Positions 1,237 through 9,801 of a stretch of 14,618 nt of DNA are shown here, in pieces. The stretch is taken from NCBI RefSeq assembly GCF_018854495.1, contig NZ_JABBDR010000082.1, forward strand, positions 1-14,618, written 5' to 3'. Below the pieces are notes generated by a model. That model was not told the DNA's origin. It did not search any database and worked only from the letters and a program-made list of their open reading frames with translations. Made by a program: the position numbers and the translations under genes. This DNA comes from Acidithiobacillus ferruginosus (GTDB lineage: Bacteria; Pseudomonadota; Gammaproteobacteria; Acidithiobacillales; Acidithiobacillaceae). How positions within the stretch are numbered: position 1 is the stretch's first letter; every line of letters begins with the position of its first letter.

Positions 1237-1275
1237 CGTGCCAACAGGAATATTGCTGGATATTGGTATTCATCA

Positions 1276-1412
1276 CCCCCTCCGGGGGGATTTCAGGATT
1301 GCGCTATCGCGCATCCCAGTCAGGCCCTATCGGGCCATATCAGGCTCTTCGAGCCGGGTCACGCCCTGCGGGCGGGGCACGTCCGGGAACGTGCGGGCCG
1401 CTATCGCGTCCC
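1276..1412. repeat. Array of seven short consecutive hairpins with different stems
   Basis: Seven stem-loops follow one another with almost no gaps: CCCCC/GGGGG (1276-1288); GGAT-T-GCGC/GCGCATCC (1296-1316, one bulged T); GGCCC/GGGCC (1323-1336); GGCTC/GAGCC (1343-1355); CGCCC/GGGCG (1362-1374); GCACGT/ACGTGC (1377-1394); GGGcCGC/GCGtCCC (1395-1412). Stem sequences differ but the architecture repeats about every 20 bp. The first five are each immediately preceded by TCA on the plus strand. Read on the minus strand, the loops are GGA, GATA, GATA, GAA, GCA, TCCCGG and GATA, so six of seven begin with G and end with A. The array fills most of the gap between the genes at 613-1236 and 1452-1796. 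Confidence 0.8.
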
Positions 1413-1952: not shown

Positions 1953-2333
1953 TCAGGTGTATCTGGGCTCTCGTCCACAGGACCGCTCGTATTGTTCCCA
2001 GGCCTCCACATCCCTACGATCAATGCCCCAGCATAGCTCGCTGGTACCGTGTACCCACATAACGGTTCCACCACGTCGCGCACCGGGGAATGTCCAATGT
2101 GCCTGGTGGCTTCCCATCCTGTTTTCCTTTGTCGCTTTTTCAAAGGTGAATGCCAGATCCGGCCTTGCCTGACGCACCTGCGCCACAAAATCGTCGAAGT
2201 TGCTTTCATCATCATCATCGCGGCGGTTCTTGAGAAATTCAATTCGCTCTACCAAGCGCTTTTCCTGTGCGCGTTTGCGTGCCAGTTCCTCTTCAAGTTC
2301 TGCCAATCGCGTTTTGCGTTCTTCTATAGTCAT
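1953..2333 (-). CDS. Hypothetical coiled-coil protein, 126 aa
   Basis: The first ~40 residues are a strongly charged helix with heptad-like spacing (ERKTRLAELEEELARKRAQE, then RLVERIEFLKNRR), predicted as a coiled coil. An acidic linker (DDDDES) and a globular C-terminal part with several Trp (AHWTF, VMWVHG, LCWGID, EAWEQY) follow. The layout of coiled coil plus small C-terminal domain recalls nucleoid proteins such as H-NS, but no H-NS DNA-binding motif is visible, so no function is assigned. The start overlaps the stop of the preceding gene by four bases (ATGA), implying translational coupling to the 87-aa protein. Confidence 0.7.
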   Translation of the reverse strand: MTIEERKTRLAELEEELARKRAQEKRLVERIEFLKNRRDDDDESNFDDFVAQVRQARPDLAFTFEKATKENRMGSHQAHWTFPGARRGGTVMWVHGTSELCWGIDRRDVEAWEQYERSCGREPRYT

Positions 2334-2593
2334 GCCGCTTCCTCTTCCGTGGATTTCGACCCGGCAATATCCGCTACCGTATCCAGGGTATCCCGTTCTT
2401 CTTCCACCACGTCGCCCGTTTCGCGCTCCTTTTCTACCAGACTGATGATCTTGTTCAGCTTGGCAGGTTTGATGTCGAGATATTCCGCGATGGCCTTCAC
2501 GTCTTCCTTCAACTGCTCCTGCATCGACGCAACCGCGGCACGTCGGTTGATGATATCCTCAATCGCCTTTCTGGACTTCGTATCTATCTGCAT
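2330..2593 (-). CDS. Small acidic helical protein, 87 aa
   Basis: The product is almost entirely helical and charged. It starts MQIDTKSRKAIEDIINRR, has a central segment VKAIAEYLDIKPAKLNKIIS, and ends in an acidic tail. The central pattern resembles small phage-type double-stranded DNA-binding proteins such as T4 DsbA, in which a helix with a similar K-hydrophobic pattern occurs; this resemblance is weak and by eye only. AGGAG lies about eight bases before the ATG at 2593. It follows topA on the same strand after an 81-base gap and is coupled by ATGA to the coiled-coil gene after it. Confidence 0.7.
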   Translation of the reverse strand: MQIDTKSRKAIEDIINRRAAVASMQEQLKEDVKAIAEYLDIKPAKLNKIISLVEKERETGDVVEEERDTLDTVADIAGSKSTEEEAA

Positions 2594-2644
2594 GGCTCAT
2601 ACTCCTATCGTCGTCTAACGGTTCCGGCGTATTTTGTGCATCAC

Positions 2645-2667
2645 CCGCATATCGCCGTCCTATGCGG
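2645..2667 (-). terminator. Stem-loop just after topA
   Basis: CCGCATA at 2645-2651 pairs perfectly with TATGCGG at 2661-2667 across a nine-base loop, eight bases beyond the topA stop. No T tract follows on the minus strand, so it is not a typical intrinsic terminator. It could protect the 3' end of an upstream mRNA segment. Confidence 0.3.
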
Positions 2668-2674
2668 ATAATCC

Positions 2675-4804
2675 TTAATCCATGATCGTTGATCGCCGCG
2701 CTGCGGGCTTACCCGTGCGCTTCCTCGCAGGTTTGCCCGCGGACTTTTTGGCGGCGGCTTCGGGCTTGGCCTTGCCGCCCTTGCCCGCCGGCAGCGTCTC
2801 CCAGAGCTTACCGATGGCACCTTTGTCGTCCCACCAGGTTCCGTGACCCTTGGCGCATCTGAAAAAACCGTGTCTATTGGATGTCTCGTAGCGTCCGGTC
2901 GGCTTTCCGCATTCCGGGCACGCTGGCCCGTCCGTATTGGATTCCACTTTATCCCCGAAGGGTTCACCCGGTGTCCCGTCTTTGTCCTGGAGCAGATTGT
3001 GGTTATCCCGGTTGGAGCACGCCCAGAAAAAAGATCCTTTTTTCTTCTTGCTCTCGCGCCGACTGACGGTGCCGCCGCATCCGTCTACCGGGCACGGTTG
3101 CGAGTTATCTGCCCCCTTGGGCATGGTTGCGATGGTGCTTTGAATATCCGCATAGGATTTGGCTAACAGATCGCGGGGTGGCATTTTGCCTTCGGTGATG
3201 AGATCCAGGCTCTCCTCGATCAGCCGGGTGTATTCCAGACCCGCAAAGTCGAAAGGGCGCAGCGCATCGACGACCTGCTCACCCAGATCCGTCGCGTAGA
3301 GGGCCGGCGCCTTGCCTTTGCGCTTCATGTAATCACGTTTGTAGAGCACTTTAATGATACTTGCGTAGGTGGACGGGCGGCCTACGCCGTGGTCCTCCAG
3401 CGCCTTGATGAGCGTCGATTCCGTGTAGCGCGGTGGTGCCTTGGTCTTTTTGCTGACCATTTCTCCGCGCTCGGCCTTGAGCTTGTCACCGACGGAGAGC
3501 TTGGGTACCGGATTTGCGGCCTCTGTCTCTTTGCCCTCACCCTCGTCTTCGCTCTCGGTATAGAGGGCACGCCAGCCGGGGTCCGTAAGCACCGATCCCA
3601 CGGCGCGGAACAGGGCCGGGTGCGACAGGTCTCTCCAGTGAAAAGTCCCGCCATTCAGCGTACATGAAGTTTGCTGATAGATCGCATCCGGCATCTGAGA
3701 CGCCAGCGCCCGCTTGCGAATGAGCTGATAGAGGGCGCGTTGATTCGCATCCTCACCGGCTTCCTCCAACATGGGCTTCGTGGGGCGAACCGCCTCATGG
3801 GCCTCCTGGGCATCGCCCTTGGCCTTCCAGCGTCGCGGTTTGTCCACAACGGGTAGCCCGGTTTTCTCCAGCGCCGCACGCAACAGGCCTTCGCCTTCCT
3901 CAGAGAGGTTCGGGCTGTCGGTACGGTGGTAAGTGATGTGGCCATTATCAAAGAGCGCCTGTGCGGCTTTCATGATGTCTTCCACCCCAACCTTGAGGGC
4001 GCGGGCGCCATCCATCTGCATGGAGCTGGTGGTGAAGGGGGGAGCAGGGGCGCGGCGTACAGGTTTCGATTCCGCTTTGGATACGACCAGCGGCATGGAG
4101 GGCAGCGCATCGGCAAGTGCCTGGGCGAATGCCTTGTCCTGGAAGTATTCGCCCTCTTTGGTGCCGTCGATCCAGGATGCTCTCCAACCGGATACCCCGT
4201 CTTTGCCCGGCATGTGTGCGAGTACCTGGTAGAATGCCGTGGGCTTGAACGATTTGATGGCTCGCTCGCGCTCGACCACCAATGCCAGTGCCGGGCTCTG
4301 CACCCGTCCCGCCGAGGCCTTCGCCCCGATGGAATTGCTGAGGACAGGGGAGACTTCCCATCCGACCATGCGATCCAGCGCCCGGCGAGCTTCTTGCGCA
4401 GCTACCAGGCGCATGTTCACCGGGCGCGGAGCCAGTAACGCCTTACGGATCGCGGTCTCCGTCACTTCCTGGTAGGAGACGCGCTTGGCTTCACCGGGTT
4501 TGATCTTCAACACCTGGCAGACATGCCAGGCGATGCCTTCGCCCTCCCGATCCGGATCAGTGGCGATGTACACGGCATCGGCGCTCTGCGCCGCGGCACG
4601 GAGTCCGGAGACGATCTCTTTGTGCTTCGTATCCAGAATCTCGTAGCGCATGGCGAAGTCTGGCGGGCGGACATAAGCAGCTTCCCCGGTTACGGGAAGA
4701 TCCCGGATATGGCCGAGAGTGGCCTTCACCTGCCAGCCGTTTCCGAGAATATGCCCGATATGCTGGGCTTTCTTGGGTGACTCGACGATGAGGAGGGCAC
4801 TCAC
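2675..4804 (-). CDS. topA: DNA topoisomerase I (type IA), 709 aa
   Basis: A type IA topoisomerase, which relaxes negatively supercoiled DNA by single-strand cleavage through a 5'-phosphotyrosine. The N-terminal TOPRIM domain has LIVESP (Glu8) and DPDREGEG (Asp83, Asp85, Glu87). The catalytic tyrosine is Tyr292 in ITYHRTDS, and the family motif SAGRVQSP lies at 164-171. C-terminal zinc-finger-like segments follow at about 571-602 (Cys571, Cys576, Cys596) and 629-654 (Cys629, Cys632, Cys650, His654), then a Lys/Ala/Arg-rich tail. It is shorter than E. coli TopA (865 aa) and has topoisomerase I features rather than those of Topo III. The start is GTG at 4804, overlapping the stop of the 21-codon ORF by GTGA. 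Setting among TraR/DksA and Rep-like genes suggests an accessory copy carried by a mobile element. Confidence 0.95.
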   Translation of the reverse strand: MSALLIVESPKKAQHIGHILGNGWQVKATLGHIRDLPVTGEAAYVRPPDFAMRYEILDTKHKEIVSGLRAAAQSADAVYIATDPDREGEGIAWHVCQVLKIKPGEAKRVSYQEVTETAIRKALLAPRPVNMRLVAAQEARRALDRMVGWEVSPVLSNSIGAKASAGRVQSPALALVVERERAIKSFKPTAFYQVLAHMPGKDGVSGWRASWIDGTKEGEYFQDKAFAQALADALPSMPLVVSKAESKPVRRAPAPPFTTSSMQMDGARALKVGVEDIMKAAQALFDNGHITYHRTDSPNLSEEGEGLLRAALEKTGLPVVDKPRRWKAKGDAQEAHEAVRPTKPMLEEAGEDANQRALYQLIRKRALASQMPDAIYQQTSCTLNGGTFHWRDLSHPALFRAVGSVLTDPGWRALYTESEDEGEGKETEAANPVPKLSVGDKLKAERGEMVSKKTKAPPRYTESTLIKALEDHGVGRPSTYASIIKVLYKRDYMKRKGKAPALYATDLGEQVVDALRPFDFAGLEYTRLIEESLDLITEGKMPPRDLLAKSYADIQSTIATMPKGADNSQPCPVDGCGGTVSRRESKKKKGSFFWACSNRDNHNLLQDKDGTPGEPFGDKVESNTDGPACPECGKPTGRYETSNRHGFFRCAKGHGTWWDDKGAIGKLWETLPAGKGGKAKPEAAAKKSAGKPARKRTGKPAARRSTIMD

Positions 4805-8619: not shown

Positions 8620-9801
8620 CTAATCTTCCTTCCGGGTCGCGTCGATCCAGTCGGCCCAGGCCTGCATCATGATTCGACGATCTTGCAGATATTCGGCGTG
8701 ATTGTAGGCCGCCTTAGTCGCGTTCCCCTCGACATGAGCCAATTGACGCTCAATGACCATACTCGCAAACCCCAGCTCATGCAGGCGCGTTGACGCCGTT
8801 GCGCGGAAATCATGGCCAGTCCAACAACCGGACGGATACCCCATGTACTCCAAAGCACGATTCACCGTAGTAAAGCCGATGCGTTCTCCAGGTGTTCGGG
8901 AATTATTAAACAGCCACTCGCCTGACCCTGTGATGGCATTCAGTTTTTTCAACAATTCAATAGCTTGATGCGGGAGCGGGACCAGGTGCGCCCGACGTTT
9001 TTTCATCCTCTCGGCGGGTATCAGCCACTCTCCCGCCTCCAGATTGAACTCCTCCCAGCGGGCCTTGCGTAGCTCTACCGTCCGCACGAACAAATACAGC
9101 AACAGCCGCAGAATGATGATCGTCGTGAGATTCCCACCGTAGCCGTCGAGCCTTCTCAGAAAATCCTTAATATCTGCTGCATTCATAGCCTTACTGTGGC
9201 TGATCTTGGGCCGGATTATCGCTCCCTTGAGTGCGGCGGCGGGGTCGCTGTCAGCCCTCAATGTCACCACCGCGTAGCAAAAAACAGCCGAGCACCAGTA
9301 CCGCAGGTGCATCGCATAAGTCTCCGCGCCCCGCGCCTCCATCTCCCTCATAATATTTAGAATATCTGCCGAGTTAATGCTGCGAATCGCCATTTTCCCA
9401 ATCGCGGGATAGGCATTTTTTTCGAGACCATCCTTGATCCGTGCATAATAACCGGGCGACCAATGTGGCTGTTTTTTAACCAGCCATTCGTCAGCTACCT
9501 TCTTGAATGTAATCGCGTTACCAGCTTCCTTTTCCCCTTGGTTCTTACGGCGGATATGGGCGGGGTGGACACCCTGTTTTACGAGGTCTCGGGCGTCCTC
9601 TCGGGCCTTTCTGGCCTCTTGCAGGGATATTTCCGGGTAGTTGCCCATGGCATAGACGTTTTCCTTGCCGGCAATGCGGTACCGATAGCGCCAGTGTTTC
9701 GCGCCCGTCGGGGTGACCTCCAGATAGAGGCCGCGCCCATCCGTCAGCTTACAGGTTTTGCCTGTAGCTTTGGCCTGACGGATCTTTATATCTGTCAGCA
9801 T
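8620..9801 (-). CDS. int: P4-type tyrosine integrase, 393 aa
   Basis: A full-length tyrosine recombinase of the P4/CP4-57 type, which joins element and host DNA at att sites. The N-terminal arm-binding domain has the usual LTDIKIRQAK start, KLTDGRGLYLEV and MGNYPEISLQEAR (about 1-85). The core-binding domain spans about 95-190. The catalytic domain has Arg240 (LFVRTVELR), a Lys near 267, His330/Arg333 (GHDFRATAS), His356 (QLAHVEG) and the nucleophile Tyr366 (AAYNHAEY). All key residues are present, so it is probably active. No good ribosome binding site precedes the ATG at 9801. Promoter and a large inverted repeat lie directly upstream. It points away from gshB, as P4-type integrases point away from their target site. 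Confidence 0.95.
   Translation of the reverse strand: MLTDIKIRQAKATGKTCKLTDGRGLYLEVTPTGAKHWRYRYRIAGKENVYAMGNYPEISLQEARKAREDARDLVKQGVHPAHIRRKNQGEKEAGNAITFKKVADEWLVKKQPHWSPGYYARIKDGLEKNAYPAIGKMAIRSINSADILNIMREMEARGAETYAMHLRYWCSAVFCYAVVTLRADSDPAAALKGAIIRPKISHSKAMNAADIKDFLRRLDGYGGNLTTIIILRLLLYLFVRTVELRKARWEEFNLEAGEWLIPAERMKKRRAHLVPLPHQAIELLKKLNAITGSGEWLFNNSRTPGERIGFTTVNRALEYMGYPSGCWTGHDFRATASTRLHELGFASMVIERQLAHVEGNATKAAYNHAEYLQDRRIMMQAWADWIDATRKED

Follow-up and report, generated by a model that had tools for sequence, protein, structure and literature searches.

What would seven small hairpins of largely unrelated sequence, set one after another, be doing in the genome of Acidithiobacillus ferruginosus? 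They occupy positions 1276 to 1412 of the DNA analyzed here, a stretch of 14,618 nucleotides from contig NZ_JABBDR010000082.1 (hereafter "the window"). In this report, we find that the array is real and conserved, and that, with one hairpin (H6) set apart, pairing and loop type are maintained in it, and stem sequence is not. The array sits in an F-type conjugative element, and we consider that there is about an even chance that it is the origin of transfer (oriT) of elements like ICEAfe1, or a part or the core of that origin. This is the most likely role that we can assign to it; a site for single-strand initiation or a promoter active in single strands is the chief rival.

The hairpins are best described on the minus strand, where they run in tandem from 1412 to 1276 in the order H7 to H1; all coordinates of hairpins below refer to that strand, and the region that we read extends from 1255 to 1412. 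H7 (1395–1412, GGGACGC-GATA-GCGGCCC) contains one A.G mismatch. H6 (1377–1394, GCACGT-TCCCGG-ACGTGC) carries the sole loop that is not of the GN type. Then follow H5 (1362–1374, CGCCC-GCA-GGGCG), H4 (1343–1355, GGCTC-GAA-GAGCC), H3 (1323–1336, GGCCC-GATA-GGGCC), H2 (1296–1316, GGATGCGC-GATA-GCGC[A]ATCC, with one bulged A) and H1 (1276–1288, CCCCC-GGA-GGGGG), and each of these five is directly followed by TGA. A sequence-only reading made earlier had described these seven hairpins, the TCA before five of them on the plus strand and the GNA or GATA loops that six of them show on the minus strand, and every part of that description was confirmed. The spacers of H5 to H1 measure 6–7 nucleotides in the window and 5–8 in its relatives, and the distances from one TGA to the next in the window are uneven (19, 20, 27 and 20 nucleotides). 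Just 3′ of the array lies a conserved flank (1255–1267, minus strand, ACCAATATCCAGC).

Arrays of this kind were found in the window and in six other Acidithiobacillus genomes, one copy in each. The six are denoted G001, G005, G007, G008, G010 and G012, and the seven arrays amount to about three lineages (window/G012/G005; G001/G010/G008; and G007). A model-fitted alignment of H7 to H3 from all seven has 189 cells, 99.5% of them paired; two-sided changes are seen in seven pairs and one-sided changes in none. H7 is the most variable stem of this set, with two-sided changes at four of its six modeled pairs. Of 500 shuffles, none equaled the alignment on four of the five measures used and two did so on the remaining one, and when partners were slid out of register, only 18 to 55% of cells were paired and no two-sided change was seen. 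The sequence-only reading had supposed that the stems were unrelated and that only pairing was kept. The homologous loci bear this out for H7 to H3, whose stems persist through two-sided changes, but not for H6, which is identical in all seven arrays.

The loops are likewise conserved in type. We drew all seven hairpins by hand in each array, and each was located in its sequence by script. In these drawings, the 42 loops of the hairpins other than H6 comprise 19 GNA, 20 GNNA and 3 GNAT, and 41 of the 42 are closed by a C-G pair; the GAA loop of H4 recurs in every array. The stems comprise 298 cells, of which 287 are Watson-Crick, none is G-T, and 11 are purine-purine (ten G.A or A.G and one G.G). 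H2 differs in stem sequence among the arrays, yet each of the seven drawings leaves one A of its 3′ arm unpaired. The trinucleotide after each hairpin is less constant: TGT replaces TGA after H2 and H1 in G001, G010 and G008, while G007 has TTT after H1 and, after H5, a TGA whose T belongs to the stem. The motif ATCC(A/T)GC is found 13–14 nucleotides 3′ of H1 in all seven arrays.

Could GC-rich DNA have produced such an array unaided? A comparison with shuffled sequence, which the sequence-only reading had proposed, was made between a 161-nucleotide region and 1000 dinucleotide shuffles. Counting perfect stems of 5 bp or more whose loops have 3–4 nucleotides, we find five in the region; the shuffles average 0.50 and reach at most 4, such that none of the 1000 attains five. 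When the loops are further required to be of the GN type and closed by C-G, five are again observed, and the shuffles average 0.019 and never exceed 1. Under a looser rule (at least 4 bp, any loop), the observed five were matched by 5 of the 1000 shuffles, and the densest 140 nucleotides of the whole window, with six hairpins, lie outside the array. Short hairpins alone are thus ordinary here, and the array stands out by stem length and loop type together. Indeed, the minus strand of the 14.6-kb window has five GN-loop hairpins with stems of 5 bp or more, and every one of them falls inside the array. The same scan of 409 kb of array-bearing contigs, on both strands, recovered the array in all seven contigs (3–5 hairpins each) and only two further clusters of at least three GN-loop hairpins, one of which overlaps the end of a HEARO RNA.

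The array has a narrow distribution. A covariance model of H7 to H3, built from four sequences, was searched with stricter filters against 96 genomes (17 of Acidithiobacillus and 79 others), a genus-wide search that the sequence-only reading had proposed. It found the same seven genomes, all in the genus, at 85.8–120 bits; the three arrays not used in building the model scored 85.8, 93.9 and 103.4 bits. The next rows were 17 weak ones of at most 25.2 bits (E-values of 0.005 to 0.81), which are probably due to chance; inspection of the middle 600 nucleotides of seven of these 17 matches revealed no array. The sequence of H6 (GCACGTTCCCGGACGTGC), with two mismatches allowed, occurs in 7 of the 17 genomes of the genus, with one exact copy in each. 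In a collection of contigs, exact H6 was found in 22 stretches, five of which have arrays and belong to the seven carriers already counted: those of A. concretivorus ATCC 19703, the metagenome-assembled genome YP4.bin20, A. ferrivorans DSM 22755, A. marinus SH and Acidithiobacillus sp. HP-2. The other 17 have no array within the stretch of up to 122 nucleotides that follows H6. No exact H6 was present in viral contigs, and a blastn search of plasmids and phages gave no matches. A description of such an array was not found in the open-access literature, searched by titles and the starts of abstracts; subscription papers, including the first description of ICEAfe1, lay outside that search.

The element that houses the array in the window encodes a topoisomerase (topB), helix-turn-helix and RepC-like proteins, and an integrase, and those of its relatives additionally carry genes for a lytic transglycosylase and for TraF, TraH, TraG, TraK or TrbI-type proteins. 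The G007 element fits ICEAfe1 of A. ferrooxidans ATCC 23270: open reading frames of 337, 711 and 1218 amino acids match the published TraF, AFE1047 and TraG. The contigs of the window and G012 are short at one end; in the five elements with enough flank to be compared (G001, G005, G007, G008 and G010), the place and orientation of the array are constant, between the topB side and the tra genes.

In six of the seven elements, the gene that directly follows the array on its 3′ side is an orphan (613–1236 of the window, minus strand) whose product has a predicted HAD-like alpha/beta fold. It is present in all seven array-bearing genomes and in none of the ten without an array. Its relatives in a protein database number eight, two of them with Acidithiobacillus names, and a tblastn search of plasmids found none; across 274 genomes of the class, it was matched in its own genome only, although no other member of the genus appears as a match there. 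In G007, the relative of this gene is found in the traD operon with an HD-domain gene, 143 kb from the array, and the gene that follows the array, to which the G005 and G012 elements hold relatives, runs on the opposite strand. Therefore, the G007 array is no leader of that relative.

Several other features of these elements were noted in passing. An inverted repeat of 25 nucleotides (1417–1441 and 1527–1551 of the window, 92% identity) joins the end of the gene at 1452–1829 to the sequence just 5′ of the array in the minus sense; in G012, one position has changed on both arms with pairing kept, and the repeat was not seen by eye in the sequence upstream of the G005 and G001 arrays. A tyrosine integrase (8620–9801, minus strand) lies at the border of the window's element, beyond which, by reading of open reading frames only, are apparently chromosomal genes of glutathione synthesis. 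In G007 and G008, genes of the HU/IHF family lie about 9 kb from the array; they are not adjacent to it, and we do not use them as evidence. The G005 contig, from A. ferrivorans, contains a HEARO RNA (RF02033, 91 bits; L021:3466–3706, minus strand) by an RRXRR/HNH (IscB-like) gene (2027–3397, minus strand), 6 kb from the array. Large plasmids of Allochromatium (pAt1) and Pseudomonas (pSTY) share a distant HD protein and much of the F-type backbone, namely TraL/E/K/V/C, TraFHG, a topoisomerase, DUF3150 and a GspE ATPase; of the two, pAt1 is typed as non-mobilizable. Its GN-loop hairpins include three clusters of three: the first lies immediately upstream of iscB, the second repeats those three loops 3.5 kb farther along, and the third is in DNA rich in repeats. 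In addition, six stems of 5 bp or more, with loops of mixed type, cluster at L109:42073–42212.

An important question is which nucleic acid folds. By published accounts, GNNA and GNAB tetraloops (B being C, G or T) are stable in DNA, GNRA being the RNA counterpart (PMC8373063, citing Nakano 2002), and GNA triloops give very stable DNA mini-hairpins (Yoshizawa 1997, via PMC11101458). Because the loops of the array fit these stable DNA families and are mostly not of the RNA type (5 of 23 tetraloops are GNRA, and 18 are not), the best reading is that the minus strand folds as single-stranded DNA, a reading limited by the few lineages and the hand-drawn stems. The lack of G-T pairs suggests the same; it is a hint of DNA folding and no proof, since stems drawn by hand are biased toward pairing and the arrays represent few lineages. 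By energy models, DNA is not told apart from RNA, nor plus from minus. As DNA, the chain of hairpins is the best fold of the minus strand (−42.0 kcal/mol, z-score −3.95, none of 200 shuffles as good), and the plus strand reaches −40.3 kcal/mol (z-score −3.33); as RNA, the z-scores are −3.40 for the minus strand (none of 200 shuffles as good) and −2.44 for the plus strand. Of the two relatives that were folded singly, G010 and G007, the G010 copy folds strongly as DNA (z-score −6.02). The sequence-only reading had pointed to folding as single-stranded DNA of the minus strand; its argument from the loops holds, but the choice of strand and nucleic acid finds no such backing in energies, given that plus-strand DNA and minus-strand RNA fold well too.

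How, then, might the array work? We propose that it is a cis-acting site of an F-type integrative conjugative element of the ICEAfe1 kind, acting once the minus strand has become single-stranded. Each stem capped by GN(N)A would form a very stable DNA mini-hairpin, whereas the sequence-specific portion would be made up of the invariant H6 and the conserved ATCC(A/T)GC that follows the array on its 3′ side. The hairpins may mark the strand for nicking and export and hold it open while relaxosome proteins load. ATCC(A/T)GC bears a likeness to the nick region of the IncP/Ti type, and the order on the folding strand, hairpins and then this motif, would be the pattern expected of a nicked strand. 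Further, an oriT would be expected once per element in a fixed place, and the array is present in one copy per genome and is fixed in five elements; inverted repeats, often with an essential conserved one among them, would also be expected, and six variable hairpins accompany the invariant H6. The sequence-only reading had suggested protein binding in replication or transfer. The fixed place in a conjugative element fits that suggestion; the more specific role, an oriT, is our own proposal. The paper on ICEAfe1 locates no origin of transfer in the portions examined (PMC6370655). The array provides a concrete candidate, 160 bp in length, for the start of transfer.

As for the relaxase that would act at this site, the HD-domain protein encoded in the traD operon is a candidate, though a different protein, so far unrecognized, may fill the role. 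The HD gene is present in six of the seven array-bearing genomes and in none of the ten without an array (Fisher, 5.7e-4); the exception, G012, is a genome 85% complete. In G007 the protein has 835 amino acids, and its gene lies 1.5 kb after traD. All six members match the HD domain PF01966 at an E-value of 0.1 or better (best 3.6e-6). Given the relatedness of the genomes and the inheritance of each element as a unit, the co-occurrence of the array with the HD gene and with gene 613–1236 shows shared membership of an element, not direct interaction. Known relaxase families were also sought in the seven array-bearing genomes, and matches were obtained to MobA_MobL in three, TrwC in five, PF03432 in all seven (weak in G007) and TraI_2 in one. 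TraI_2 (PF07514) had no match at the HD gene in the seven genomes, its single match being in G010 on another contig. No relaxase match was on the contig of the array except in G007, a single contig, with two PF03432 matches at 444 kb and 1.2 Mb. The PF03432 proteins, examined for their gene neighbors, may yet have a connection to the array. As for AFE1047, the protein of 711 amino acids that was published as the ICEAfe1 relaxase TraA (G007:C1:943789–945924), it matches the RecD2 helicase at 625.9 bits (cut-off 500) and TraA_Ti at 125.7 bits (cut-off 590), in the helicase part only. The HD protein should be regarded as no more than a candidate relaxase; like the array itself, it is directly testable.

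A number of observations weigh against the array being an origin of transfer that folds as DNA. Nicking, transfer and protein binding at the array are proposals. The hand drawing of stems and the dependence on about three lineages, noted above, bear on every count of pairs and loops. The G007 copy, from the element that fits ICEAfe1, has a weak fold as DNA (z-score −1.53, 14 of 200 shuffles as good), and the minus strand of the window, which also folds as RNA, precedes a gene on the same strand in six of seven elements. ATCC(A/T)GC is short and common, with 2 to 46 same-strand copies per contig. A reversed H6 control pattern, with two mismatches allowed, also matches in 7 of the 17 genomes, so that the H6 counts rest on exactness and on the surrounding array. 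The candidate relaxase gene and the array are separated by 140 kb in G007 and lie on different contigs in five further genomes; the product of this gene matches TraI_2 (MOBH) in only one of six members (E-value 0.0082), and a distant HD relative lies on pSTY, typed MOBF by MOB-suite. Relaxases of the PF03432 type exist elsewhere in all seven genomes. A search for allied arrays in the whole of pAt1 (176 kb) and in 50 kb of the 322 kb of pSTY revealed no GN-loop cluster larger than three hairpins. Finally, the array is GC-rich, unlike the IncA/C oriT, described as AT-rich with direct repeats.

These points leave room for other roles. The one that survives best, though we think it rather unlikely, is a site of single-strand initiation or a promoter (resembling single-strand initiation sites (ssi), single-strand origins (sso) or Frpo), at which the hairpins of the incoming strand would load primase or RNA polymerase and thereby allow synthesis of the second strand or expression of early genes. 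Such a site would leave the same signature of single-stranded DNA in stems and loops, transfer and replication-type genes are nearby, and promoters of the Frpo type in F and an IncI1 plasmid are described as acting only in single strands (PMC7736820). A consensus scan for double-stranded promoters, which is blind to a folded one, found no sigma-70-like site in 1000–2000, and the G007 copy faces a gene on the opposite strand. Known sites of this kind carry fewer hairpins.

Less probable still is a structured RNA, whether the leader of gene 613–1236 or a separate non-coding RNA. The position of the array just upstream of that gene in six elements and the folding of the minus strand as RNA would both be accounted for, and two-sided changes would look identical. 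Yet none of the 298 cells is G-U and none of the 189 has changed on one side only, and the tetraloops are mostly not GNRA, as opposed to the GN-loop hairpins that overlap the end of the G005 HEARO RNA, where three of three are. Rfam release 15 (4227 models) gave no match at the gathering cut-off in the window and none up to an E-value of 10 in 1200–1480; the G007 copy matched only GA-cis, at 12.6 bits (E-value 6.1), far under the cut-off of 34.7. In G007, moreover, the distant location of the gene's relative and the opposite strand of the next gene do not suit a leader.

We regard it as improbable that the array functions in the double helix, be it as an origin of replication or an operator where a protein binds repeated sites, or as cruciforms in supercoiled DNA. 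The TGA that recurs after five hairpins could be such a repeated site, replication-type genes flank one side, and the plus strand folds as DNA nearly as well as the minus strand. However, paired changes in the stems other than H6 are hard to reconcile with a protein that reads sequence on the double helix, the TGA spacings are uneven, and the GN(N)A rule for loops holds on one strand only. A chance origin, which might appeal to the ease with which GC-rich DNA yields short hairpins and to the 5 matching shuffles under the looser rule, and the dispersed palindromic, REP-like element that the sequence-only reading had entertained are next to incredible: the former is rejected on account of the stricter shuffles, the conservation in homologous arrays and the rarity of other GN-loop clusters, and the latter because each array-bearing genome has one copy, inside the element.

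An origin of transfer thus stays our preferred reading of the array, and we infer for it folding as DNA rather than RNA, a nick and a relaxase. More tentatively, and with less confidence than we place in that role, we suggest that it could represent a new kind of element: a row of mini-hairpins of DNA whose ultra-stable, DNA-specific loops, d(cGNAg), d(cGNNAg) and d(cGNABg), selection would keep while the stems drift by paired changes without G-T intermediates. Such an array would hold the strand folded against single-strand-binding protein and offer a loading platform in conjugation, with the invariant hairpin as recognition site. If this is true, compensatory evolution under the loop rules of DNA would be a signature by which other functional single-stranded DNA structures could be found.

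How does the array compare with systems already known? Repetitive extragenic palindromes and the mosaic elements that they form (REP/BIME) are palindromic units dispersed in many copies with conserved stems; our array, by contrast, is single-copy in each genome that bears it, and six of its seven stems are not conserved. The STAXI motif likewise consists of tandem structured units near ssb, topoisomerase, antirestriction and integrase genes, and a role in single-stranded DNA was considered for it; it differs in being a pseudoknot repeat with RNA-stabilizing UUCG loops, which its authors took as speaking against DNA (PMC2864571), whereas the loops of the array point to DNA. With the Frpo/ssi of F and an IncI1 plasmid (PMC7736820), the array may share the use of folded single-stranded DNA in conjugation, but it has seven hairpins in a row, and no promoter elements are shown in it.

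The origins predicted for Acidithiobacillia, in a MobM element and in F. caldus plasmids, similarly place inverted repeats beside relaxase genes, those of MobM having stems of 8 and 10 nucleotides and loops of 4 (PMC10561277, PMC12375680). They consist of two inverted repeats by mobM, or of a palindrome beside a nick site by mobA, and go with MobM, MOBQ and MOBP relaxases; the present array has seven hairpins and no gene for a MobM, MOBQ or MOBP relaxase beside it. Closer parallels are the IncA/C and SGI1 origins (PMC5587640, PMC6414798). The IncA/C oriT (MOBH) is about 150 bp long, with several inverted repeats, directly upstream of the orphan transfer gene mobI, and that of SGI1 is an inverted-repeat array in 125 GC-rich bp, one repeat being fully conserved. 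Like the former, our array has short inverted repeats upstream of an orphan gene, and IncA/C is likewise F-type in its transfer genes, which fall into two clusters, traFHG being one; like the latter, it is a GC-rich repeat array with one fully conserved repeat. These likenesses are drawn from descriptions, and the portions consulted mention neither a GN(N)A loop rule nor tandem hairpins spaced by TGA. Further, transfer activity was measured for IncA/C and SGI1, while for the present array it is a prediction.
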